From NCBI RefSeq assembly GCF_013402915.1, contig NC_050719.1, positions 1-64,000 of the forward strand: a stretch of DNA of 64,000 bases. The letters are read 5' to 3'. Both the position numbers and the translations under genes were made by a program. The notes under the pieces are model-generated. The model ran no database searches and had not been told where the DNA came from. It worked only from the letters and a program-made list of their open reading frames with translations. Below, in pieces: positions 1-48,840 of the stretch. The stretch comes from Zygotorulaspora mrakii. Taxonomy: Eukaryota; Ascomycota; Saccharomycetes; Saccharomycetales; Saccharomycetaceae. How positions within the stretch are numbered: position 1 is the first letter of the stretch; each line of letters opens with the position of its first letter.

Positions 1-112
1 CCTACACCGCTCCCCTACACCGCTCCCCCCCCCCCCTACACCGCTCCCCTACACCGCTCCCCTACACCGCTCCCCTACACCGCTCCCCTACACCGCTCCC
101 CTACACCGCTCC
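1..112. repeat. Telomeric repeat array (C-rich strand)
   Basis: Eight copies of the 13-bp unit CCTACACCGCTCC, interrupted once by eight extra C residues at about 27-34. The complementary G-rich strand reads GGAGCGGTGTAGG, so the 3' end of the G strand would point out of the window at base 1, as at a left chromosome end. Uniform short G/T-rich repeats with a fixed period are what a telomerase RNA template produces. The unit differs from the irregular TG1-3 repeat of S. cerevisiae. After base 112 the repeat stops abruptly and the sequence becomes a G-poor pyrimidine-rich tract. What remains may be only the inner end of a longer array cut off by the assembly. Confidence 0.85.
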
Positions 113-1944
113 CCTCCCTCTTCCATTTTTCATCTTCTATTTCTTTTCTATTTCATACACCCCTACACTCTCACATCTCTCATTCATTTCACATTCTTTT
201 TTTCGCTCTTTTCTTTTTTTACTTTACACACCCTACTCTCACATCTTCCTCCACCCTTCCATTTTTTCTTCACTTCCATTTCTCATTTCACACGACTCCA
301 CATTCCTTCATTTCCACTTCACTCTCTCCTTTCACTCCACCACCACTACCACCTCACTTTCACACCTTTCCCCCTCTCTTTTCTTTTTTCATCACATCAC
401 TCATTCCCATTTCCCATTTCCTCACCATCTTCAACCATACATCACATTTCATTCACTCTTTTTCTCGACTTCCCTTTCCACTTTTCTTTTTTTCCATCAT
501 TCACTCCTCTACACCATTCTCCAACCATACTACTCCCATACTCCACACCCCTACCACTTTCTCCTTCACTTCCCATTTCCTCAACACTCTTTTTCACATT
601 TCCACTCTCACTTCCCCACTCCCCAACTACAACACACTCTCAGACTCCTTTTCTTCACCCTTTACTACTACACTACTACACAACTACACAACGACATTTC
701 ACTTTCTCATCTTCTCTTTCTTTCTTCTTTCTACTTCCCCTCCTACTTTCATCACCACTTCACCATCCCTCTCCCCTCACTCCACTTACACATCACTTCT
801 TTCACCTCTTCATCCCACTTCCATCCCTCATTCATACACTTTCACATCCTCTTCATTCATCTCACATTCACCGCCAAACACTTCTTCATCTCTTCACCTC
901 ATTCTACCTCTACCATACACCACGCTTCTTTTTTCTTTTTCCCTTTTCCCTTCTCTTTCTTCCATCCGCTCCTCTACTTCAACATTCCCCACCATCTCCA
1001 TTCATACACTCATACATTCATACATTTCCTTTCTTCACTTCACTTCCCTCCCATCCCCTCATTCCACTCAAACCACATTTCCATTCTCCATCACTTTCTC
1101 TCAACCACTCACTCAACCCTCAACTCCTTTCTCTCTCTACTCACCACTTCATTCCTCTTTTCTTTTTCTTCTTTCTTTCCCACTTCTCACTCTCATTCAC
1201 TCTTCACTTCCACAACTCATCCTACCTTCATCTCATTCTTTTCATCACACTCACATCTCCTCACTCCCTCCTTTCACTCTCATCTTCTCTACTCTTCAAC
1301 CACCACACATCTTTTTCATCTTTTCATCTTTTCTTTTTTCTCTTTCATTTCTACTCTCACTTCATTCCTCACTCCACTCAACCACTCTCTCTTCCCACCT
1401 TCCCTCATTCCCACACCAACATCCAAACTTTTCATCTCTTCCACGCTACCAACCATCCATTTCCATTCACACATCTACTCAACTTCTCTACCCTACTTCA
1501 CTACACACTCTTTTTATTTACTCTCTTCATCTCTTTCATTCGAACTTCCTTTTACCTCTCTACTCCTATTTCACTACACACTCATTCATTCTACTCTCTC
1601 TTTTCACTCTCACTTTTCGTTTTCACATCTACATACACCATTCATACCACACTTCTCATACATTCATCTTTTCTATTCCATCTTTTCATCACCTCATTTT
1701 ACACATCTACTCCTTTTTTACTACTCAACTCCCGACATTTACTCTTTCTCCTCACTCCCTTTTCACTTTCAACTACATCTTTTTTCTTCACTCTCTCATT
1801 CTTTCATCCTTTCTTTTCTACTCTACTCCACTACACTCCTCATCTTTCATACATTTTCACTTTTACATTTCATTTTTTCTTTCTTTTTACATACACCCTA
1901 CTCTACTACATACTTCCATCCATTTCACTCCACTCCATTACACT

Positions 1945-2240
1945 CCCCTACACCTTTCCCCTACCGAACTCATTTCATCCTCACTTTTCTATCATACTAC
2001 TCTCTTTTTCTTTATTTCATTTTTTCCTCATTCTACTCTTACACCTCTCCTACCAACTTCATTCCCCTACACCTTTCCCCTATCGAACTCATTTCATCTT
2101 CACTTTTCTACCATACTACTCTCTCCCATTTCCCTTCATTCATTCCCCTACACCTTTCCCCTACCACTCTCATTTCATCTCCACTCTTTTCATCTCCGCA
2201 CTTTCCTCCCCTCCATCACACACTTTCATCTTCACCTTTT
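1945..2240. repeat. Degenerate telomere-like subtelomeric repeat units
   Basis: The motif CCCCTACACCTTTCCCCTA occurs at about 1945, 2064 and 2145, with a further copy at about 4283. Each carries CTACACC followed by six bases and then CTAC, the same 13-bp spacing as the terminal repeat but with TTTCCC in place of GCTCCC. A second shared block, CTTTTCTACCATACTACTC or close variants, accompanies the copies at about 1985, 2102 and 2240. This looks like a decayed tandem repeat derived from, or co-evolving with, telomere sequence. Confidence 0.6.
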
Positions 2241-5200
2241 CACTTTTCTACCATACTACTCTCATTCTTTTCCTTCTTTTCCATTTCTTTCCTTTCGCTT
2301 TCTACTACTCTTCGCTTCTTCACTACACTCCCCACCAAACTCTTTTCCTCTTTCATTCACTTCAACTTCTTTCTCCTTCCATTCACTTCAACTCTCATTC
2401 ACTCTCCATCTTTTCATCTCTATTCATACATACTCACATTTCTTTTCTTTTCACTCCAACCAAACTTTCATCACCCTCTTCATCTCCCTCTTCATCTCCC
2501 TCTTCATCTCCCTCTTCATCACCACTCTTTTCTCAACCATTCACTCTACTCTCACACTCCCTCTCTTCTTTTCTTCTTTCTCACATTCACTCTTTTCAAC
2601 TACTTTTCATACTTTCAACTCTACTTTCATTTCTACTCCCGCTTCTCTCTTTTCTCTACTCTACTCCCCTACCATCTCTTTCCTTTTTTCTCTATTTCTA
2701 CTACTCTTTCTTACTTTCTACTCCCATCCACTCCATTTCACTCTTCACATCAACTTCCAACCCTTTTCATCTTCTCATACACTTCTTTTTCTCTTTTACT
2801 ACTTTTCTTCCACTCTACTCCACTACTCATTCCCTTTCCTATTTCTTTTCCACTTTTTTCTCCTACCTCACCACAAACTCAACTGGATTCTTTTCCATTT
2901 CACATACACTCCTTTTCCCTCTATCAACCACTCACTCATACTCCTTTTCCCTTCTCTACCATTCCCTAACTCTTTCCTATTCCTCTCCTACACTTCCTTT
3001 TTTCCACTCAACTACTCATCTCTTCCCTCATCATTCATTTCACACCTACATCACGCTCTACCCACTTCTCTCCTCTTCTCCTTCTTTCCTTTCTCCTCTT
3101 CTCCTCAAATCTTCTTCTCTACTCGAACACACATTCTCGTTTCACCTCTTTCTATTCATTCCATTCCATTCTACCTCTTATTCACACTCCATTTTCTTTT
3201 TCTCTTCACTTCGACCTTCCTTTTTTCTCTTACACTTCTTTCCTTCTACTCAACTACTCATCACATCTTTCACATATCTCTTTCCACTTCACTCTTTTCA
3301 TCATTCCATTCACCCCTACTCTACTTCTTCACTCACTCCCTTTTCCTACTTCTTCTCTCCTTTTTCTCTCCTACTCTTTTCATCTTTTCACCCAACCATT
3401 CCCTTCACGTTCTCTTTTTCCCTTCCACTCCACACTCTTTCATCTTTCAACTTTACATCTTCACTTTTCATCATTTCTACCACTTCTCATCACTTCTTCT
3501 TTCTACTCCATCTTTTCATCACCTCGCTCTACTCAACTACTCATCCTCATTCCCTTTTCCATTCCTCTTCTCCTACTTCACTACCCACTTCCCACTTCCT
3601 TTCCTTTTCTCTACTCTACTCCACTACTAACTCATCCATTTCTCTCTACTTTCATTCTCTTTTACAACTCCAAAACTCTCTCATCCTAACCATCTTTTCA
3701 TATTTTCCGTTTTTTACACTCTCAACTTCCCATTTCTTCCCACTCTTCTCATTACTCTTTTACTTCATTCATTCTCATCTCTTCTGTTACTTCCCTTTCT
3801 ACGTTACTCTACTACTCTCCTCCCCATACTTTCATTTAACTTCCTTCTTTTTCACTTCCACTATTACCCAAACATCAACTTCATTCCATCTTCCTCTCTT
3901 CTTCAAACTACACATTCCTCTACCTTTCACTTTTCCTCTTTCTTCCACTTTTCCTCTTTCTTCCACTTTTCTACTTCCTTCACACTACTCCCCATCTCTC
4001 ATCTTCTACGCACCTACACTCAACCGCTTTTCCTTCATACTTCCTTCATACTACTCCCGACGCTTTTCTTCTACTCTATACCACCCCTTCTCTTCATACC
4101 CCCCTCCTCTTTTTTTTTCCTTCATACTACACATCACTCCTTCCTTTCACTCCCGTTCTACTTCACATTCTACTTCTATTTTCTACATCATTTTTTTCTC
4201 ATCACTACGCTCTACCATCCCACTTCCTCTTTATTTTCCTTTTTCTTTTCTCCATTTCACATTTACATCCCATATCTCCTTTCCCCTACACCTTTCCCCT
4301 ACCGCCTATTTTCATTCTACTCTCAACTCTTTTCATCTCTTTTACTCCATAACCCTTTATGATTCCACTTCCTCTTCCTCTTTTCCACATCTTTCATACC
4401 ACTCCCTCACCGCTCTCATTTCGATTTCATCCGCCATTCAACTTCCATTCACCCCCTACCTTCTTCATCTATTACACTTCTCCCCTCATCTTTCATATTT
4501 CCCGCTTCTCACTCATTCTTTTTCTTCTTTTTTACTTTCAACCACCGTCTACACTCTTCATCTACTCCACTTCTTTTTTTTCCTCTTCACTTCTACTTCT
4601 CAACTTTTACATAACACATTCCCAACTTCTTTTCATTCATACTTTTACTTCTTTCTTCATTCCTCTCTCTCTAACTCTTTTACTTTACTACTCTACATCC
4701 CTCCCTCCTTCTTCCCCCACTTATTCTTCCACTTTACTACTATATTTTACTCCATACTTCTATTTCCGCCACTCTACTCTTCTACACCTTTTCTTTCATT
4801 GAAACCTCTTTACTATTCCCTTCTCCTTCACTCTACTTTTTCATTTCTTCTTACTTCACTCTTTCTTCACCATTCTTTTTCTTCTCTCTAACATATTTAC
4901 ACTTATTTTCATCACTCATCACTCATCACTCATCACTCTTTTACTAACCATTTTCACGATTCTTTTCTTCTATCCCTTTTTTACTTCTTTAATCTACAAT
5001 GATTCTTTTACCTCAAAACTGACTTCTTCTTTTACCAACTATCTATTCTAAGCCAACTACTAAACTATCCACAACGCTTTTCATCACTACTCTCTCACGT
5101 ATATCCAATAGATTATTTAAATTATCTTTTCGCTTTCCACTTTTACCTCCTTCCTCTTCCATTCCTTAATTTACCATCGAGATCCATAAACAACTTCTTC

Positions 5201-5507
5201 TTTTCCCATCAAAAAACAACAACAAACAATCGAAAACAAACAATCGAAAACAAACGAAAACAAACAACAACAACGATAACGATAACAGCCATATATTTCT
5301 TTCAAACTACTTTATATTGGACACATCACTTTTATTCTCCCTTCTTTCATCTACTCACTCCTGCTAACTTTTTCCTTTTACTTCTCACATTCCTTTACAA
5401 ACATACATTATCTTTTTTACAATTTATTATTACATTCCTTCACTTTACCACAATTTCATATTTATTTATTTTTTAATTACATTATCTTATTTACAACTTA
5501 TTATTAA

Positions 5508-5617
5508 ATTCCTTTATTTACTTTCTTCATTCACATTCCTTTATTTACATTCCTTTATTTACTTTCTTCATTCACATTCCTTTATTTACATTCCTTTATT
5601 TACATTCCTTTATTTAC
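5508..5617. repeat. 14-bp tandem repeat with 42-bp higher order
   Basis: About eight copies of a 14-bp unit close to CATTCCTTTATTTA run head to tail. Some units are replaced by a CTTTCTTCATTCA variant, so that blocks of three units recur as a longer period of roughly 42 bp. It lies at the inner margin of the G-depleted tract. No coding capacity. It looks like replication slippage or unequal exchange in subtelomeric DNA. Confidence 0.65.
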
Positions 5618-6813
5618 ACTTCTGAATTCATGCCCTTTACCATCCACTTACCCTACCTTCCTTACCTCACCACTTTTACCCCGTCGCATTTCGACGAATA
5701 ATTCCTCTTTTTTCATTTTTTAAAATCTATATCACTTCCGAACTCACTCGATAACCCCATTTCACCTCTACTTCCACCAAATCAGCCTTCATTCCCTTTT
5801 CTCTATCCTCTTTTTCCCCCCACTATCCCCCCACTTAACCCATCGCATTTCGACAATGAACTTGTCTTTTGACTAACTTTAAAATCATTTCTTATTTCTT
5901 TCTCTATTGCCATCACATTTTCATTATTTCCCTTCCCTCTCCCTGCCTCTTCACTTCCCTTGCCCTGCTTCTTCCATCATCCTCCTCGTTTACCATTCCC
6001 TCCACATTCCATCAATCCATACCACTTTGCCGGTATGTAAACACTCTCAAAACATTCCTTGATTTACATCTGCACACCCATCTTCACCATCCTACACAAC
6101 GCCACAGAATATTCCTAGTGCCCATTCCCATCCTTACATCTACCTCTATACCCCATTCCACCATCTCTACACCATCGCCCATACATTCGTCCCACAAACC
6201 CATACAAACAGACGTTAGACCCACACATCTTCTCTCTTTACTCGTCTATATATCCCCCAATATCAACTTCACATCAAAAAACTCAAAGCTATACTTCTTT
6301 TTTTAACGTTTTCTCTCTATTTTACTACTTCCTTTTCATTTTCGACATTTTTCACCTTTCCAAATTTTTAAAATTTCTTACCCAACATGAAATGATCGCG
6401 TGTCAGCAAACTTTTTTTTTGAATTTATTTTTTTTGCTATGTCGCCAACCACGTATTTTCAGAGTGTGGCACGAGAACCAAAGAATAACGTGAGTTTTTC
6501 CATGTAGATTCATAATATTCCATCACCAAAAGGCAAACCATTCGCCAGAAATACATCATTATATCAAAAGAAAGCGAAAACCAAACTCCCTGAGATCACT
6601 CGTTTTCGTTACAAATTATATACCGTTATATGCGCATCCATCTCTACCCTACGATTGTGCCTTTGTATTCTACCACCAGCCCCACAGCATATTCTGCGAG
6701 ACGTTGTACACTCACCTTTGCCCAGATCACACACTACGATTACATGATATCTCAGAACACTACACCCTCAAGCCTACTCAACTGCAAACTCTCACGGCTT
6801 CTATAAATCTATA

Positions 6814-7974
6814 CTACATATCACTCGCCTCACCTTCTATCAACACCTTGTTCAATCCACACTCCTCCACATACGTGCCCAGTATAAACCTGTACACAGG
6901 TACCCGTTGGGCATACCCACACTTCCGCATACACATCACACTGCCCAACCATTGCCCAAATACTTCAAACTTGCGGTACCCTGGTAACACCCTACTCACC
7001 ATATTGTGAATATCCCCTTTCTCGTACACACAGTACAACAGGAGCACCAACAGCCGGAACTCATCCAAATCAAAACAGTCCCCCCGACCATGCCCGTCCT
7101 CCCAAAGTGTACCTGAAACAACTTCCAGCATGCGTCGGTGCGACCGCAGAAATATCTCCTTGTCTAACATTCTTGAATACCTGCTATACGGCTCTCTGTT
7201 CCCCCACTCCATATCAATTCCGAATGGTTTCGATAGTCGACCTTCAAACACTAACGTCGCCACGTTTGCTTTCGACCGGACCACTGCATGCCAAAAGTGT
7301 CCCCAATGCAACAATACTCTTGACGTCACGTCGTCATTGCATGTAATCCCCTCAATCGTCTCCGTGTATTCGGATTCCATCGCTTCCTCATATAGTCTGC
7401 TCCACACCGCCTTCTGCCGCAGCACATGTTGCACGATGTTATGTCCTCGCCCCAGCTGCGCAAAATTAAAGAGATGTCTCATATTTTGCCGTGCCGGGAC
7501 AAGTCGAAGAAGTGCAAGTGCCTCCAGGATGATTTTTCCCATGTGCTTCCCAAACGTCTCACATTGGCAATACTCGTTCGACATGAAACAGGTGCGACAA
7601 ACACTCTCCGGTAGGTTCATTTCCGCAGCTGTGAGTATGTGGTCAGCCGGCACCCCGTATATCAGATCCTTAATTCTGGGCAGATCTGCCGATGTGCTAT
7701 CGAACAATAACGTACGCAACTCGCTCGCATACAGCCCTGTGGTTTTGTTTTGAATGTTGTCGAGAATAAAATGAAACATTCTCGAATGTCCCTGGTCCTC
7801 CTCCTCATCTCCCTCCTCTTCCGAAAGCACGTCTACCCTTACACTGTGTACAGCTCTGCGCACCTCGCCAATCTCCCTCGGACAACTTTGCTCCTCCCAC
7901 GAGTTGCAACACAGCTGGTGATCTGGTCTGGTGCTGGCACCGAGTAGAACGACGCCACTGTTTCCGTTATACAC
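6814..7974 (-). CDS. C-terminal part of the same helicase, in the -1 frame
   Basis: A 386-residue frame overlapping the end of the main helicase ORF by 136 bases and shifted by -1 (or +2). The first codon at 7974 is GTG and the frame is open further upstream to at least 8040, so it is a continuation, not an independent gene. It contains an acidic stretch (SEEEGDEEEDQG) and a cysteine cluster CRTCF...EYCQC about 130 residues in, which could bind zinc, followed by a mostly helical tail. Read with the upstream ORF it makes a protein of roughly 1450 residues. The break could be a real inactivating indel, an assembly error (an A5 run lies at about 8029-8033), or a programmed frameshift. I do not see a canonical slippery heptamer. 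Confidence 0.65.
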   Translation of the reverse strand: MYNGNSGVVLLGASTRPDHQLCCNSWEEQSCPREIGEVRRAVHSVRVDVLSEEEGDEEEDQGHSRMFHFILDNIQNKTTGLYASELRTLLFDSTSADLPRIKDLIYGVPADHILTAAEMNLPESVCRTCFMSNEYCQCETFGKHMGKIILEALALLRLVPARQNMRHLFNFAQLGRGHNIVQHVLRQKAVWSRLYEEAMESEYTETIEGITCNDDVTSRVLLHWGHFWHAVVRSKANVATLVFEGRLSKPFGIDMEWGNREPYSRYSRMLDKEIFLRSHRRMLEVVSGTLWEDGHGRGDCFDLDEFRLLVLLLYCVYEKGDIHNMVSRVLPGYRKFEVFGQWLGSVMCMRKCGYAQRVPVYRFILGTYVEECGLNKVLIEGEASDM

Positions 7975-10900
7975 TTGCTCCAGTTCACATTCCGCAAGTC
8001 CTCGTGTGCAACTGCATCCCTGAACTCCTTTTTCTTTCCAGCTATCCGAACCACCTCGAGGTACCCACTGCCCCTGATCCGTCCAACCATCTGTAAAAAG
8101 TCTATCATATCCACATCACAGTCTGCCAGACACACATAGTCCACCGCATTGCAGTCAAGACCGTTCGATATCAGCTTGGTCCCTATGATCACGCGCACCG
8201 GACTTGCTGCCGACTCGAATTCGCGAAATACCGAGAGCTTCACGCGGTCCGGCATCTCCGAATCAACCGCGGCCACAGCCACTACCTTCTTCCACCGCGC
8301 GTAGCAGTGACGCATCCGCGCCTTGTTGCTGAAGAAAAAGATAGCCTTGCCTGTAGCAGTACCCAGCAGATAACTGTTCACACGCTGCTCGATTGCTCCT
8401 CCAAACTCCTTCTGCGGAACAAGTGTCACCTCTTTCAGCACTTTCTGGTTGGGCACCTGGTGTACAGCGTTCGTCCATCCCGCATTCCTCACCATGTATC
8501 GTGATAGATTCAATTGCTTGCACAACTCGTCCATCAGCCATGCCGGAAGCGTAGCACTTATAAAGACTATCTTTAGAAACTCCCTCCATCGCAGTGAGTG
8601 TATCTCTTTTAATTCCTCCCTGAAATCCTGCTCTAGCCACAGTGCGTGTGCTTCATCGAGAATAAAGTACCCCTTCTGCCGTACGCACATCAGTTCTTCC
8701 TGCCACCCGTTGATGAAGGAAAATGTCGCGTGCGTCCCAAACATATCAAATGTACCTACTAGCACATCTGTATTTTTCAGCTTACTTTTCCACTCCGCTG
8801 AACCTAGTAATTTCAGATCTGCAACCGCGAGTCCCACTTCTTCTAGTCTTTGCATGGTTGCTATTTTGAGTGACACATATGGTACAGCTACAAAGTGCAC
8901 GTATTTTCCGGGTCGTGTGCGCTTTAAAACGAGCATTGGTAACACAAAAGTCATGGTTTTGCCAAAAGCTGTTGGTGCCTGAAGCGCCAGCACATTTCTG
9001 TCGCCTGTCAATATCATATTCGTAAACCTCTCCTGCTCCACCGACCTGAACTTGAATCCGCTGATAATACCTGACCCTGCCTCGCATAGATTGGTGTAGT
9101 CACCAATCGTCCCTTCATCCGGTTCAGATGCAGCGCTAGTTGTGCAAGCCTTGTCAGTGATGAGAGGGCCTTTCTGTGTTAATTTCTGGAAAATTTGACA
9201 CAACTTTTTTGCTGAGACAAACGGGACCTCCCTTGGACCAACGGTACGTGAGTTATCAAACCCGTACACTGCAGCATCCACCGACACTGAATGTCCAAAC
9301 CCACGAGCAACCGCCTGTCCCAGTTCCAGGGTCTGATCGTACAGCTGCCCCGCAATGAAGTGCTTCCACAGAGCCGACAAACCATGTCGCATCGACCGTA
9401 TCCTATGGCTCTCTCTCATTGCCGTCGCTGTCGGATACTTGAGAAGCATGTTCGAAAACGTTGACCGATGCACCAACACCAACTTCCTTACGTCCAGAAA
9501 GACCATACTCTTGAAAATAGCATTGCCAATCGTCTGTGGCGATGCATTATTCAGGCGGTTTCGTAGCTCCATTTGGTGATAATACAGCTCGGCGTTAAAG
9601 TTTATGTCCTCCACTTCTTCTTCAGTGTCATGCGTATCTGTAAGCGGCTCCTGAGGTGTGAGGGCACCCATGATGGCAGATATATTGATTTTAGAGATGT
9701 CGTCACCCAAAAGTACTATCGTGAACGGCCGCAGGATATAAATAAACCAGAATAGCTGTGCAGACACTCTTGCATCCAGAAATAGCAAGCGGGTGTCGTA
9801 CTTTGTGTTTTTGTTATACCTTGACCGAATGATGAACACACGATCGTCGGAATCAAAGTACAGGTTTCGGTGCGAACCGCCAAAACTAATGATGCTCAGT
9901 TCCGGAAATCTAAGCGCCAGACCGGGATTGATCCAGACTGCCAACATCAAGAGTTTTGTTATAGTGTTGACGAGCTTTAGTATACTGGCGCGGACCTGCT
10001 CATTCTGCGCACTTTCCTGCTCTCGAAATCTCATGGTATACCCACTGACAGCCTCCGCACCTATTACATTGAACACGGAGTCCTGTCCAGAAAGGTTTTC
10101 TACCACACATATACTCCTATTCGCCATCACAGTCATGTATACGTCGGACACACTTCCGAACTCCAGCCACCGGCGCAGTTCCTCCACATGTGCCTCGAGG
10201 TCCCTGTTCAAGTCACTTTTCATCTGAGCCACATATTCGAATGAGATCAATTTACCCTCCACACGTACAGCCCGTTCATCAGGATTCACCGTCACTCGCA
10301 CCGTGGCCTCAATTCCTTCTTTAGCAACCGTATGGTACAAACGTCTGAACCACCCCCAATAGTTAATCACAGAGAGATAGTTGCGACTTGCAAGCCAGTA
10401 GGCGGTCTCAGACACATTTTCTGTAGTGGCAAAGCATGTGAAAACTATCAGGCACCTTATCGTATCCATGATCCGTCGCGCCTTAGTCACTGTGTTCTCC
10501 GGACACGGGACATCTGTACGGTCCCACGCTGGAAAGTTGAACGCGCACATTCTTACCCAGCGAGCCAAATATTCACGGTAAATGTTCTCCCGAAGACAGT
10601 TATCGAAACATCTTCCGAGGGCTTTCATCTTGTAAACAATGGTATCCTGTCTTTCAGGATCATGTGTTAGCATTTCGATAACCCTATGAGGAAGAAAAGC
10701 ATGCTCTGCGAAACAAGACAGGCGCCAGGCGTTGAACAGAAGAAACAAATACGGCGCGAGTGTCACCCCATACTGGTTTATCGTGCTCGGAGCAAACTTC
10801 TTTACCATCGACGTAATACCATCCTTCATGTCTATGTTCAAATAGTTAGAGGCACTGTGCTCCGCCTTAAGGTATGCGAAGTTTAGATAATTCTGTCCAA

Positions 10901-11138
10901 AAACAACGTACGCGGTCTTCATTTCACGGAACTCTCGCAATACCTCGTAATCTTCCTCAGAAAAGTTGAAGTCACGCACCTTAATACTCTGGGGAGGCAG
11001 ACTGTTATCTACACTTGCGTCAAGCATGCCTACAGGCAGTTCTAGTATTGAAGAATGTAAGTACTTGTAATTTAGAGGACTGTATTTCCAAAATTTCTTC
11101 CTACACTCCCAGGATTCCGCCTTTAAGCCCCTTTTCAT
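7839..11138 (-). CDS. Subtelomeric (Y'-like) SF2 helicase, main ORF
   Basis: A 1099-residue open frame starting at an ATG. The C-terminal third carries SF2 helicase motifs: Walker A APTAFGKT near residue 720, DEAH (FILDEAH) near 826, SAT near 859, and a motif V/VI segment with GLDCNAVDYV and QMVGRIRG near 990-1020. Proteins of this kind are encoded in subtelomeres of many fungi (Y' elements, telomere-linked RecQ-like helicases). The N-terminal 700 residues are not helicase; around residues 400-620 they show an Arg, HRIR (H-x-x-R), GHS and a following Tyr in the order seen in tyrosine recombinases. Transcription runs toward the telomere. The frame ends soon after motif VI, where family members normally continue; the rest is found in another frame at 7974-6814. 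It may be a decaying copy. Confidence 0.8.
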   Translation of the reverse strand: MKRGLKAESWECRKKFWKYSPLNYKYLHSSILELPVGMLDASVDNSLPPQSIKVRDFNFSEEDYEVLREFREMKTAYVVFGQNYLNFAYLKAEHSASNYLNIDMKDGITSMVKKFAPSTINQYGVTLAPYLFLLFNAWRLSCFAEHAFLPHRVIEMLTHDPERQDTIVYKMKALGRCFDNCLRENIYREYLARWVRMCAFNFPAWDRTDVPCPENTVTKARRIMDTIRCLIVFTCFATTENVSETAYWLASRNYLSVINYWGWFRRLYHTVAKEGIEATVRVTVNPDERAVRVEGKLISFEYVAQMKSDLNRDLEAHVEELRRWLEFGSVSDVYMTVMANRSICVVENLSGQDSVFNVIGAEAVSGYTMRFREQESAQNEQVRASILKLVNTITKLLMLAVWINPGLALRFPELSIISFGGSHRNLYFDSDDRVFIIRSRYNKNTKYDTRLLFLDARVSAQLFWFIYILRPFTIVLLGDDISKINISAIMGALTPQEPLTDTHDTEEEVEDINFNAELYYHQMELRNRLNNASPQTIGNAIFKSMVFLDVRKLVLVHRSTFSNMLLKYPTATAMRESHRIRSMRHGLSALWKHFIAGQLYDQTLELGQAVARGFGHSVSVDAAVYGFDNSRTVGPREVPFVSAKKLCQIFQKLTQKGPLITDKACTTSAASEPDEGTIGDYTNLCEAGSGIISGFKFRSVEQERFTNMILTGDRNVLALQAPTAFGKTMTFVLPMLVLKRTRPGKYVHFVAVPYVSLKIATMQRLEEVGLAVADLKLLGSAEWKSKLKNTDVLVGTFDMFGTHATFSFINGWQEELMCVRQKGYFILDEAHALWLEQDFREELKEIHSLRWREFLKIVFISATLPAWLMDELCKQLNLSRYMVRNAGWTNAVHQVPNQKVLKEVTLVPQKEFGGAIEQRVNSYLLGTATGKAIFFFSNKARMRHCYARWKKVVAVAAVDSEMPDRVKLSVFREFESAASPVRVIIGTKLISNGLDCNAVDYVCLADCDVDMIDFLQMVGRIRGSGYLEVVRIAGKKKEFRDAVAHEDLRNVNWSKCITETVASFYSVPAPDQITSCVATRGRSKVVRGRLARCAELYTV

Positions 11139-14912: not shown

Positions 14913-16052
14913 ATGTCTTTACCACAGCTACTTCCAATTGCCGTCCAATTCAATTATAACACATTGGCCAATGGTGAATGGATACCAGATTTTTTCCAAG
15001 ATCTTGGCGTTTTCGGTAGGGGAATTGCATGTCAAAGTGAATCTGGCTCGGTGATTTCTTATTATCCTGATCAACATGCTGATGCATTAAGAACTTTGGA
15101 AGAGTTTGCAGTAGGCTTCCATATGTCATATCAAGTTTTTGCAGAGCAAGGAGTCCCAACTAGAGAGACTGATATGGTCATTTATGACGTTCCTCAAAGT
15201 ATTAGCGAAGCCTGCCAAGGGATCGCAGCTGGGAGTAGAATGCAGTGTTCCTTAACAGATTATTGCGGACCTAATGCACCTAATGATGCTGGATTGAATC
15301 CACCTTCTGCTTCTGCTTCGGCTTCGGCTCCTGCCTCTGCTCCTGCTTCTGCTCCTGCCTCTGCTCCTGCTCCTGCTTCGGCTTCGGCTTCTGCTCCTGC
15401 CTCTGCTCCTGCTTCTGCTTCTGCTCCTGCTTCTGCTTCTGCTTCTGCTCCTGCTTCTGCTCCTGCTTCTGCTCCTGCTTCTGCTCCTGCTTCTGCTCCT
15501 GCTTCTGCTCCTGCTTCTGCTCCTGCTTCTGCTCCTGCTTCTGCTCCTGCCTCGGCTCCTGCTTCTGCTCCTGCCTCGGCTCCTGCTTCTGCTTCTGCTC
15601 CTGCTCCTGCTCCTGCTTCGGAAACATGGGCTGGTTACAGTAAAAATAGTACTATTATTACTGAAACAAAAACATCACCTTTGTCAACAAAACTTATCAC
15701 AGTGACCTCATGCTCTGATAACTTATGCTCAGAAAGTGTTTACACCACTGGTGTTACAACTGTGACAAATGAGTTTACAACTTATACAACGTACTGTCCT
15801 CTAACAAGCTCCAAGGTGGAGATAGCATCGAACTTGGAAGGATCGATTTCAAGTACCCTGGTCCCTGCAACTGTTTTCCCTACAGAAAGTGCAAACTCGA
15901 GTACATCTCCTTCCATTCAACCTCAGGTATCATCTGTCAGCTCGCTTGCCACATCCTCAGCTTCTCTAACTGCTCAAACCGCAAACGCTGGTGGTAAACT
16001 AGATTATGCATTCGGTTCAGTTATTATTGGTGCTGCTGCTCTACTGCTATAA
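14913..16052 (+). CDS. Ala/Ser/Pro-repeat GPI-type cell-wall protein
   Basis: A 379-residue protein. Residues 1-128 form a non-repetitive head with Cys residues (GIACQ, EACQG, MQCSL, DYCGP). Residues about 130-238 are a near-perfect AS/AP dipeptide array. A Thr-rich stalk follows, with the LITVTSC, YTTGVTTVT and FTTYTTYCP pattern common in yeast adhesins and wall mannoproteins. The end (NAGGKLDYAFGSVIIGAAAL) is a small residue-rich cleavage region plus hydrophobic tail, as in GPI-anchored proteins. The weak point is the N-terminus: the first 20 residues are not a convincing signal peptide, so the true start could lie in an upstream exon. CCACAG at about 14923-14928 could be a 3' splice site, but I found no matching 5' site. 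The head domain is not one I recognise. Confidence 0.7.
   Translation: MSLPQLLPIAVQFNYNTLANGEWIPDFFQDLGVFGRGIACQSESGSVISYYPDQHADALRTLEEFAVGFHMSYQVFAEQGVPTRETDMVIYDVPQSISEACQGIAAGSRMQCSLTDYCGPNAPNDAGLNPPSASASASAPASAPASAPASAPAPASASASAPASAPASASAPASASASAPASAPASAPASAPASAPASAPASAPASAPASAPASAPASAPASAPASASAPAPAPASETWAGYSKNSTIITETKTSPLSTKLITVTSCSDNLCSESVYTTGVTTVTNEFTTYTTYCPLTSSKVEIASNLEGSISSTLVPATVFPTESANSSTSPSIQPQVSSVSSLATSSASLTAQTANAGGKLDYAFGSVIIGAAALLL
15301..15618. repeat. Coding minisatellite, GCTTCTGCTCCT-type units
   Basis: An array of 6-bp and 12-bp units (GCTTCT, GCTCCT, with synonymous GCTTCG and GCCTCT variants) encodes the Ala-Ser-Ala-Pro stalk of the wall protein. Codon variants are unevenly spread: a pure GCTTCTGCTCCT core sits at about 15440-15550, with degenerate edges. 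This pattern is expected of slippage-driven expansion from the centre. Length is likely to differ between strains. Confidence 0.85.
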
Positions 16053-45942: not shown

Positions 45943-48840
45943 TTAAACTTCGAAACTGGTATCATCGTTGTCGAAAATAGTATTTACATTCAATTTTCGT
46001 GTACGGAAACTGCTGGGCATTCTGCTTACGTTTTGTCTCTTTGGAGCGACAAGTTTTCTCATTTTTCCCATATAAGTGATTGCTGCACGGTTCCCACCAA
46101 CTGTCTTATAAGTTCGCGATACTGTGACTGTCTTTTTACCATTTTTCAACTTGTTGTCAATTCCGACATGCGACCCAAATTTTTCTGAGACCGACGAGGC
46201 AGTTTGTTCACTCGTCAGCATACAATGTAGCTCATCCTCGTGGTTTTCTACCTGGTGGCAGACGGAAGAAATTGGAGCATGGAGCCTCTTTATATGGCTA
46301 TGTTGTTTTAGACTGAGGAGGTCGGAATTCTCTTTACCGGGGTAGTTATCATTGAATATGGCGCTGGTTTGCTTATCGTCATTATATCTTAGGAAAGAAA
46401 GACTCTGCTGAACAAATTCTTCTGAAAGCGTCATTTTTTGTTTGCTGGTCAGAGCAGCTTCATTTTGTGAGGATTCGCCTTCCTCTTTTTCGTCGGGCTG
46501 GAAAGCATTCTTTTCATCAACGATGTCCTCCACCATGCTTTCGAAAAACGCTTGGACTTTTCCATTCTTCATTAAATTTATGTCTCCTTCCTTGGTGAGC
46601 TCTAATCGTTTCTGTTTCATCAGTTCTCTTCTTTTGGATCTATAGTTTTCTAAATCTTCATCATCTTCGTCACTAATCTCAAGCACCATTCCTGCACCTC
46701 GTCTTTTGCGAAATCCACCATTCTTAACATCGTGCAAAATCTTGTTTACCATTTGCAAATCGAGCTCCTTGTTCTCTTTTGCAAGTAAATTACGTATCTC
46801 ATCAGGATTCACGATATCTTGCGAATAATCATCAATCATTTTCTCAAGTTCGGAGTCGTATTCTTCAGATAACTCACCATCTACACCTCCTAACCCATGC
46901 CATTCATCCTCGGATTCTTCTGCTTCCACTTCGAGGATGCTACGAACGCCGCTTTCTTCCATTTTCAGCCTCCTTGCCCTGTTTTTCTTCTCCTTTAGAT
47001 CTTCTTTAACTTGCAGCGAAGCAGCAGTGCGGTGTTGTCCATCCTTCTCGAGTCGTTCATTAGCATAGTTTTCAACTATGTTCTCTCTGCGGGTATGAAC
47101 ATGCATAGTACCTTCAGCCAAATTTTTACCATAGTTTCCAAGATCAATGGGATTACCGTTATTAACTCTTTCATCATCTGAGTTTGAGTCTGAGTCCATA
47201 ATTACCGGTACAGCTTTTGCTTTTAACCGACCGAGGATTATTCCCTCGTCGTCATCAATCATATGAGGTTTTTCAATGCTAGTCTCTTTGGTCTTCTTTT
47301 CAGACTGCTCGATGTCACTATGGGAATTTTCTTCAGTGAGTGGTCCGGTTATAAGGTTACTATTCGGTTGTGGTCCATGAGGATCTTCTCCATCCGATTT
47401 TTCATCATGATAGATTGACTCGTTTGAACTTTCATCGCCGCTATAATTCATGTCTTCTTCGCGAAATTCCGCAGTTATTGAGCAGTCTTGTTCTTGTTCT
47501 TGTTCTTGTTCTTGTTCTTGTTCTTGTTCTTGTTCTTGTTCTTGTTCTTGTTCTTGTTCTTGTTCTTGTTTTTCTCTAGCTCTAATCCTCTTATTCCTTG
47601 CAATTTCCTGTTCTAAAAGATCCTCAACTATTTGTTTTTGAACTTCTATTTCTTTTATGTTAAGTCCCTTTTTCTCCATCAATTTTTTCTGATGTTCCAC
47701 TATTTGCTTTTTGGAAGCTTCTCTGAGACCAGTGTATAACTTTTTGAGAGATGTTCCATTTATGGCATTCTTTAACGAGGGATTTTTCTTAGAGAGACGA
47801 GCTTTTATGTCTAGAAGACTGGCTTTACTTAAGTGAGACCTGAAAACTTGCAAATGTTGTTCATCGTCTGTATCATCATCAGAACTCAATATTATGCATT
47901 CCTGAATATTTGATTCTCGCTTGAGTTCGTGCTTGTAGTTCTTAAGTATTCCATAACTATTGGAAAAAGCAGCAATCTGAATTTTTTTTTGTTCAGCTGA
48001 AATGGCTACTCTCGAGGCCGTAGCTTGTATAAGCTCTGTTTCCATCGCTTTTTCTTGGTCACTCTCACTAGAATTATCCAAGTCTTCAAGGAACTCTTCT
48101 TTGGACACCTTTATGCAAGGCCCGTTGTTTATGGCCTTCTTCGAGTCCTTCGAAACAGTCGCTCGATCTAAAGATTTCTCATTGTTTTCTAGCAACTTCG
48201 CCTGAATAATATGAATCTTAAGCGGGGAACACTGAAGTGACTCTTCCGCGCTAAAACCATGACCGTCTTTATAGGTTGAAGACGTATCCTTGTTCCGTTC
48301 AGAATCCTTTGCTGCAGGCGCTGATGAATCTGCATTGGTTTCAGGTGACAAGATCTTTTGCGTTGCCAATACATCTTTATTAGCGTCTTTTACATGCTGT
48401 GTTTTCAGCTCACTATAAGGGTCCTTCTGAGTGGCCAAGTTATGATCTGAATAAATAGGCTGTGTTTTAAGACCACTTAAACTTTTCACTTGAGTTGCCA
48501 AATCCCGATGGGAATTAATACGCTGTGTACTGCTTAAATGGGCGCTAGTCCTTTCCGCTGTATGATTATTTTTATCAAATTCCAAGTCTTTTCCACCACT
48601 GTAGAAATTGCTTATTACTTGTGTTTGACTGAGTTCTGTGACAAAATCATTTGAGCTTGTATCTTCTTGACGTTGTAATCTATTCTTAACCCTATTTAGA
48701 GTATCATTTTCGAATAGAAATCCGTTGCCTGATACCAACGGAGCAAATGCTGGCGGATCATCGCTAAAACTCTCCGTTCTTTTCTTATAGGTTTTCCTTT
48801 TGCCGTTCAACAGGCTCAATTCACTTAAGATTTCATCCAT
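45943..48840 (-). CDS. MRC1: Mrc1, replication-fork checkpoint mediator (Claspin-like)
   Basis: A 965-residue acidic/charged protein (1096 in S. cerevisiae). Mrc1 travels with the fork with Tof1/Csm3 and, when phosphorylated by Mec1, activates Rad53. The N-terminal 200 residues are dense in SQ/TQ target sites (LSQTQ, SSTQR, LATQV, LKTQP, LATQK, LKTQH), as needed for Mec1 phosphorylation. The central part has coiled-coil and a long EQ run encoded by a hexanucleotide repeat. The conserved Mrc1-like domain includes ESEDEWHGLGGVDGELSEEY and EEYDSELEKMIDDYSQDIVN at about residues 640-670. The C-terminus has a KTVGGNRAAITYMGKMRKLV block. No disruption seen. Confidence 0.94.
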   Translation of the reverse strand: MDEILSELSLLNGKRKTYKKRTESFSDDPPAFAPLVSGNGFLFENDTLNRVKNRLQRQEDTSSNDFVTELSQTQVISNFYSGGKDLEFDKNNHTAERTSAHLSSTQRINSHRDLATQVKSLSGLKTQPIYSDHNLATQKDPYSELKTQHVKDANKDVLATQKILSPETNADSSAPAAKDSERNKDTSSTYKDGHGFSAEESLQCSPLKIHIIQAKLLENNEKSLDRATVSKDSKKAINNGPCIKVSKEEFLEDLDNSSESDQEKAMETELIQATASRVAISAEQKKIQIAAFSNSYGILKNYKHELKRESNIQECIILSSDDDTDDEQHLQVFRSHLSKASLLDIKARLSKKNPSLKNAINGTSLKKLYTGLREASKKQIVEHQKKLMEKKGLNIKEIEVQKQIVEDLLEQEIARNKRIRAREKQEQEQEQEQEQEQEQEQEQEQEQEQEQDCSITAEFREEDMNYSGDESSNESIYHDEKSDGEDPHGPQPNSNLITGPLTEENSHSDIEQSEKKTKETSIEKPHMIDDDEGIILGRLKAKAVPVIMDSDSNSDDERVNNGNPIDLGNYGKNLAEGTMHVHTRRENIVENYANERLEKDGQHRTAASLQVKEDLKEKKNRARRLKMEESGVRSILEVEAEESEDEWHGLGGVDGELSEEYDSELEKMIDDYSQDIVNPDEIRNLLAKENKELDLQMVNKILHDVKNGGFRKRRGAGMVLEISDEDDEDLENYRSKRRELMKQKRLELTKEGDINLMKNGKVQAFFESMVEDIVDEKNAFQPDEKEEGESSQNEAALTSKQKMTLSEEFVQQSLSFLRYNDDKQTSAIFNDNYPGKENSDLLSLKQHSHIKRLHAPISSVCHQVENHEDELHCMLTSEQTASSVSEKFGSHVGIDNKLKNGKKTVTVSRTYKTVGGNRAAITYMGKMRKLVAPKRQNVSRMPSSFRTRKLNVNTIFDNDDTSFEV
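47487..47570. repeat. TTGTTC hexanucleotide microsatellite in MRC1
   Basis: About 14 nearly perfect TTGTTC units on the + strand (GAACAA in the coding sense), encoding alternating Glu-Gln in Mrc1 between a charged coiled-coil and an acidic region. Units are identical at the DNA level, so expansion is recent and copy number should vary between isolates. Being a multiple of six, it never breaks the frame. Confidence 0.9.

Follow-up and report, generated by a model that had tools for sequence, protein, structure and literature searches.

Architecture of the chromosome end

The window analysed here, a stretch of 64,000 nucleotides, comes from Zygotorulaspora mrakii, a yeast whose genome of 10.45 Mb is assembled in 9 contigs; it forms the left end (1L) of contig C1, which has 1,813,878 bases. 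The accessible text of the genome paper describes PacBio RSII and Illumina sequencing of strain NRRL Y-6702, with HGAP3 assembly of the PacBio data (PMC7282813). From the terminus inward, the order is telomeric repeats, a core tract of extreme composition, a transition zone, an ORF and a helicase gene. Table 1 gives the position of each of these features, together with a flocculin type 3 repeat protein that contains a 12-base tandem array and, much farther inside, a perfect array of a TCTTGT hexamer.

Table 1. Features of the window, with positions counted from its first base
Feature	Position	Strand	Basis
Telomeric repeats, C-strand, 13-base unit CCCCTACACCGCT	1..113	+	Tandem Repeats Finder
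Core G-poor tract (A 18%, C 38%, G 1%, T 42%)	114..5090	+	200-base counts; homologous copies at 10 of 10 telomere-bearing ends
Telomere-like site, candidate Rap1-type site	1943..1964	+	12-mers within 2 mismatches of a telomeric 12-mer
Further telomere-like sites in the tract	158, 2062, 2143, 4281	+	Same 12-mer criterion (at most 2 mismatches)
Transition to ordinary composition, with 0-6% G per 200 bases as far as 6400	5091..6500	+	Windowed counts
ORF, 321 aa, reads toward the telomere	6814..7779	-	ORF list; Pfam search
DEAD/Helicase_C protein gene, 1099 aa, reads toward the telomere	7839..11138	-	ORF list; domain search
Flocculin type 3 repeat protein	14913..16052	+	
12-base tandem array, about 26 copies	15307..15617		
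TCTTGT hexamer array, perfect, 14 copies	47486..47570		

The 321-aa ORF has two relatives, a Z. mrakii copy on contig C6 (95%) and another protein (57%), and a Pfam search gave no domain match for it. The DEAD helicase gene, which we take to be Y'-helicase-like, occurs in full or broken copies at several chromosome ends; remnants of it lie farther inside (on C3 near 16 and 41-43 kb), and a relative is encoded on C4 as well. A Sir1 ORC-binding domain occurs in two of the relatives, P0002 and P0003; in P0003 it precedes the helicase, and a relative with this arrangement is 45% identical. The presence of this domain suggests that in these relatives a Y'-type helicase has been joined to a silencing domain. 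When viral contigs were scanned with the helicase, no relatives were found.

A tract nearly free of G on one strand

A preliminary description had reported that about 5-6 kb next to the telomere is almost devoid of G on one strand, grades into normal composition at about 5-6.4 kb, resembles nothing else in the window and is not made of simple repeats. Base counts and a repeat search bear out these statements. Between positions 114 and 5000, only 45 of the 4887 bases of the + strand are G. Counted per 200 bases, G amounts to 0-5 from 201 to 5000, to 0-12 from 5001 to 6400 and to 20-46 from 6401 to 9000, and GC skew per kb lies between -0.92 and -0.97 across the first 5 kb but at -0.24 at 7-8 kb. 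With a limit of at most 10 G per 200 bases, the core ends at about 5.09 kb and is followed by a G-poor transition that extends to about 6.5 kb. From there on, in 1-kb stretches taken every 100 bases, the count of G or of C never falls below 129. Within the tract, G-free runs reach 476 bases; in bases 12-60 kb they reach 52, and C-free runs 54. Between 113 and 5000, Tandem Repeats Finder returned 10 rows of 25-107 bases each, which are too few and too short for simple repeats to explain the tract.

The G depletion of the tract is thus confirmed. In the core, the + strand is 81% pyrimidine; its complement, hereafter the G-strand, is correspondingly 81% purine (A+G) with 1% C, and its T+G content is about 57%. 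Protein coding on the + strand was considered and rejected: stop-free frames reach 1592 codons, but the three frames contain a single ATG, and the frames are explained by the shortage of G.

Copies at the other chromosome ends

The comparison took in the outermost 10 kb at each of the 16 chromosome ends. Telomeric repeats and the tract occur together at 10 ends, namely 1L, 1R, 2R, 3L, 4L, 4R, 5L, 5R, 6R, and 8R, so that the same tract is found at every end with telomeric repeats. Its copies measure 4.33-6.34 kb, contain 0.8-1.3% G and have the same orientation, the G-free strand being continuous with the telomeric C-strand in all ten cases. The remaining six ends terminate in ordinary DNA short of telomeric repeats and are therefore uninformative on the tract. 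The telomere-bearing ends besides 1L are capped by CCCCTACACCGCT or by the closely related unit CCCCTACACCGCA. At several ends the unit switches from an outer CCCCTACACCGCA to an inner CCCCTACACCGCT adjoining the tract; telomeric mismatches between ends are A/T in 122 of 138 cases.

An assembly or sequencing artefact might be suspected, since subtelomeres are hard to assemble and six of the ends stop short. However, ten ends carry diverged and mosaic copies of the tract; at nine of these the copy adjoins about 0.1-0.5 kb of telomeric repeats, and at 3L it adjoins just a few bases of them. Moreover, the genome is PacBio-based according to the accessible text of the genome paper (PMC7282813). 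This explanation deserves hardly any credence.

The copies are mosaics of one another, in which homologous blocks span hundreds to thousands of bases. Identity between ends is 94.5-100% in the distal 2.4 kb (gaps left out), and deeper blocks matching 1L are mostly 81-93% identical. Certain pairs are nevertheless similar deep inside, with values of 97.5% for 2R and 5L and 97.3% for 5L and 5R, and 1R and 3L are 99.9% identical across 9.7 kb. The deep likeness of 2R to 5L and of 5L to 5R indicates that homogenization is not only terminal. In the copy at 8R, a break falls about 4.9 kb into the tract, and DNA of ordinary composition takes over within about 100 bases. Such a cut in mid-tract implies that the bias belongs to the sequence and not to the distance from the end. 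Judged from these alignments, the tract is a telomere-adjacent repeat family that has been copied between ends.

Substitutions among the copies

Whether the bias is kept up or is fading was assessed in an alignment of nine ends, from which 3L was dropped as a near-duplicate of 1R. Badly aligned stretches were masked, leaving 5455 columns with at least four copies. Changes were polarized by majority; 74 tied columns, 5 of which contained G, were set aside, as were 16 in which three or more bases occurred. Among A, C, and T, the changes are balanced: C>T 137 and T>C 131, A>C 33 and C>A 33, A>T 42 and T>A 43. The equilibrium composition expected from all changes (A.17, C.38, G.02, T.43) is close to the observed one (A.18, C.38, G.01, T.42). 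In a control consisting of more ordinary subtelomere common to four ends, the corresponding equilibrium is A.26, C.28, G.12, T.35. Taken together, the substitutions suggest that the bias is being kept up rather than fading, and active maintenance fits the data better than a decaying telomere.

G enters the tract rarely. A>G was observed 15 times, whereas 56 cases were expected from the T>C rate, and T>G 12 times against 77 expected from the A>C rate; both changes are 4-6 times rarer than their complements. Per base of the + strand, A changes to C or T 2-6 times as often as the complementary changes occur; for G the factor is 9-18, from few cases. The bias is already present among single-copy variants. 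Columns with a G majority are variable in 16 of 43 cases.

These asymmetries are what would be expected from strand-specific mutation at the chromosome end, for example if resection exposed the G-strand to damage and its filling-in were error-prone, with selection playing no part. This is the main rival to the reading that we prefer below, and we regard it as nearly as likely. It accounts for the excess of purine-to-pyrimidine changes over their complements, single-copy variants included, and for a composition near the equilibrium of the tract's own substitution pattern. It also has a precedent in Saccharomyces cerevisiae, in which, according to the accessible part of the report, uncapped telomeres lead to long single-stranded subtelomeric DNA with strand-biased mutation (PMC2577886). 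The preliminary description had likewise proposed strand-specific mutation. The asymmetry of the changes upholds that proposal in part, but simple deamination of cytosines in a strand that is exposed or transcribed is a poor fit. Its products would be G>A changes and a G-strand rich in G+T, but the G-strand is A+G-rich, and the G losses in the core comprise 12 transversions and 4 transitions (15:17 in the control, p 0.075).

The balance of G gains and losses points in another direction. At neutral reversible equilibrium, by our own argument, gains and losses should be equal. In the core, by contrast, gains outnumber losses 43:16 (p 0.0006), and they do so under all 8 mask settings and whichever of the 9 ends is left out (p 0.011 to <0.0001). 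An excess of this kind is not expected from mutation at such an equilibrium and means that G is either purged after arising or beginning to return. The balance of A, C, and T speaks for purging. Nevertheless, G may be returning instead, though A, C, and T are without drift. The larger control, of ordinary composition, shows no excess of gains (23 gains, 32 losses). A second, short control (311 columns), itself G-poor, gave 19 gains and 10 losses, and the transition zone 37 and 17; the excess thus goes with G-poor DNA generally. An earlier impression, that G almost never spreads when it follows T or A, was abandoned: it came from a count on the unmasked alignment, with cases mostly from 8R, where ordinary DNA had apparently been forced into the alignment. 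After masking, the contrast shrank to 11:6 versus 24:2 (p 0.04) and is not relied on.

A mutational gradient might also be looked for in the adjoining gene. Compared with two internal copies, the helicase gene near the telomere has slightly fewer G on the C-strand (238 versus 255 of 1240 sites, and 58 versus 66 of 272). The difference lies in the direction that a gradient predicts, but it is too small to show that a gradient reaches 7.7 kb, and lends little support to one.

Local sequence and telomere-like sites

Dinucleotides were counted in six of the ten ends pooled, which are homologous copies and not independent. Purines of the + strand stand mainly beside C, with CA at 1.56, AC at 1.46 and CG at 2.22 of expectation (CG is 0.75 in the control), whereas TG (0.18), AG (0.26), and TA (0.60) are depleted. 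Most of the residual G lies in CpG, in 223 of 260 cases in the six pooled ends and in 25 of 27 fixed G columns. Within this context, CGT is rarer than CGA and CGC in the same six ends. The words CTAC and TTCAT are about twofold enriched in 1L. Two causes were rejected on these counts. The mark of repeat-induced point mutation is the opposite of the CA enrichment and TA depletion seen in the tract, and avoidance of stop codons disagrees with a pooled count in which 11 of 19 TpG are TGA.

Scattered through the tract are sites resembling the telomeric repeat (Table 1). The tract of 1L contains 10 telomere-like 12-mers, compared with 2.5 in Markov-simulated sequence. Across five of the ten ends, all that were tested, 6-11 per end were found against 2.2-3.3 expected, an enrichment of 2.7-4 times. 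The telomeric unit presumably resembles a Rap1 site.

This enrichment bears on the proposal, also made in the preliminary description, that the tract is old telomeric repeat decayed by point mutation. The proposal has in its favour the shared strand polarity, the telomere-like 12-mers as a weak signal of kinship, the concentration of residual G in CpG, as in the CCGC of the telomeric unit, and an A fraction near that of the unit. Against it, no clear 13-base period is left in 1L, the end in which this was computed: the value at lag 13 (0.375) barely exceeds the mean (0.361) and lies below those at lags 5 and 8. A makes up about 42% of the G-strand, in contrast to 1-2 of 13 bases in the telomeric unit. 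Moreover, the changes among A, C, and T are balanced and not directed, so that composition shows no drift away from the telomeric, and blocks of hundreds to thousands of bases are homologous between ends. Decay of telomeric repeat is thus not supported; it is largely refuted, and we consider it very improbable, although the weak signal of kinship remains.

Folding and quadruplex motifs

DNA folding was computed over 4.4 kb in 200-base windows, with energies summed, for three of the ten ends and for three control stretches (the latter on the + strand only). Either strand of the tract gave -1.7 to -5.7 kcal/mol at the three ends, compared with -352 to -397 in the controls, and both strands are thus predicted to be practically unfoldable and free of hairpins. 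Measured against base shuffles, folding is only slightly reduced in the tract (z 0.8-2.2) and is increased in the controls (z -1.5 to -3.2). Given such small z values, the near-absence of folding follows mostly from composition.

The G-strand had also been expected to be rich in potential quadruplex sequence, and this expectation is contradicted: motifs are rarer than composition predicts at all ten ends. Motifs of the G2 type cover 11-15% of the G-strand against 22-28% in shuffles, and at none of the ten ends was any of 200 shuffles as low. Motifs of the G3 type also lie below the shuffle mean at every one of these ends; between 0 and 51 of the 200 shuffles were as low. For mutation without selection, this avoidance of G-runs, like the retention of CpG, needs further assumptions.

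R-loop potential, the other property that had been suggested, is plausible given the purine content of the G-strand. The tract could then serve a TERRA-like transcript, in which a purine-rich RNA on the pyrimidine strand would form stable RNA:DNA hybrids promoting recombination of short ends. The two nearest inner ORFs do read toward the telomere, and a G-strand with 81% purine and 1% C would suit such hybrids. Clustered G-runs, however, are the zones in which R-loops start, and in the tract they are rarer than shuffled composition predicts. We consider it unlikely that the tract serves such a transcript.

Comparable elements in other yeasts

The R element of Kluyveromyces lactis, which Nickles and McEachern are said to have described in Yeast in 2004, reportedly adjoins the telomere at most ends and has a strong purine/pyrimidine strand bias. 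A subtelomeric sequence common to 11 of 12 telomeres of that species appears in the accessible text of another paper (PMC3486848). Like the R element, the Z. mrakii tract lies directly inside the telomeric repeats at all ten telomere-bearing ends, is strongly strand-biased, with a + strand core of 81% pyrimidine and 1% G, and is present at most ends (10 of 16 as assembled, the other six falling short of telomeric repeats). By contrast, it measures 4.3-6.3 kb, is found at 10 of 10 capped ends and nearly lacks one base; the telomeric unit is 13 bases in Z. mrakii and 25 in K. lactis. On these features the tract resembles the R element, its nearest known counterpart, and we file it as R-element-like and not as a homologue.

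A second point of comparison is TelKO of Naumovozyma castellii. In the accessible text of its description, TelKO adjoins the telomere, is strand-biased in the telomeric sense and contains scattered telomere-like sites; it is homogenized between ends by recombination in telomerase-negative cells and bound by Rap1 in vitro (PMC12408736). The same text gives it a length of 220-445 bases, absence from 7 of 18 ends and a T+G-rich strand (75-82%) (PMC12408736). The Z. mrakii tract shares the interspersed telomere-like 12-mers (at the five of ten ends tested), which by analogy could permit binding of Rap1, as reported for TelKO. Unlike TelKO, it is large, and its G-strand is rich in A+G (81%) and not in T+G (about 57%).

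Finally, the helicase gene that neighbours the tract in the subtelomere (7839-11138) and is read toward the telomere recalls the Y' elements of S. cerevisiae. In Z. mrakii, however, the G-poor tract sits between the helicase gene and the telomere, and we know of no G-free strand in Y' elements. A search of titles and the openings of abstracts, with most subscription papers outside its scope, turned up no account of a subtelomere free of G for either Zygotorulaspora or Torulaspora. In the accessible text of the Z. mrakii genome paper, no word begins with "telomer" (PMC7282813).

Interpretation and significance

The reading that we tentatively prefer, at a probability of roughly 0.4, is that the tract is a telomere-adjacent repeat element, R-element-like in form but large and extreme, whose bias is kept because a single strand of it must stay linear. 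Its copies would have been spread and homogenized between ends by terminal recombination, either through break-induced replication or through gene conversion. Resection of the C-strand, or transcription of the end, would expose the purine-rich strand (or RNA of that sequence), and remaining linear would matter in that situation. The exposed strand could be coated and could invade another end before being filled in again, and the tract would thereby form a structure-free back-up zone behind the telomere. Since the two nearest inner ORFs face the end, read-through from them would yield a C-poor, purine-rich telomeric RNA.

Several observations count against this reading. The unfoldability is mostly compositional, the excess of G gains extends beyond the core, and the retention of CpG is unaccounted for by freedom from structure. 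The biased single-copy variants must be added, because a mutational cause would also give them. In addition, the second control and the helicase comparison shifted the odds slightly from this reading toward strand-specific mutation. A bolder form of selection, about which we are doubtful, and slightly more so after these two comparisons, would make the tract a kilobase-scale module selected not to fold, with a three-letter alphabet on one strand, G-runs avoided on the other, new G purged, and the whole spread between ends. If true, it would point to a physical requirement on single-stranded DNA behind telomeres.

Subtelomeric elements with a strand bias are on record from single yeasts, and their explanation is at best partial, such as the binding of Rap1 for TelKO in the accessible text of its description (PMC12408736). 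With ten copies in one genome, the bias of the Z. mrakii tract can be measured as a process, in which composition is near equilibrium, entry of G is suppressed and the strands are predicted not to fold. An oddity is thereby turned into a testable question, namely whether selection or mutation acts on single-stranded chromosome ends. Were the bias selected, it would show which abilities are required of the DNA behind a telomere; were it mutational, it would count, for a nuclear genome, as a very strong signature of strand-specific mutation.
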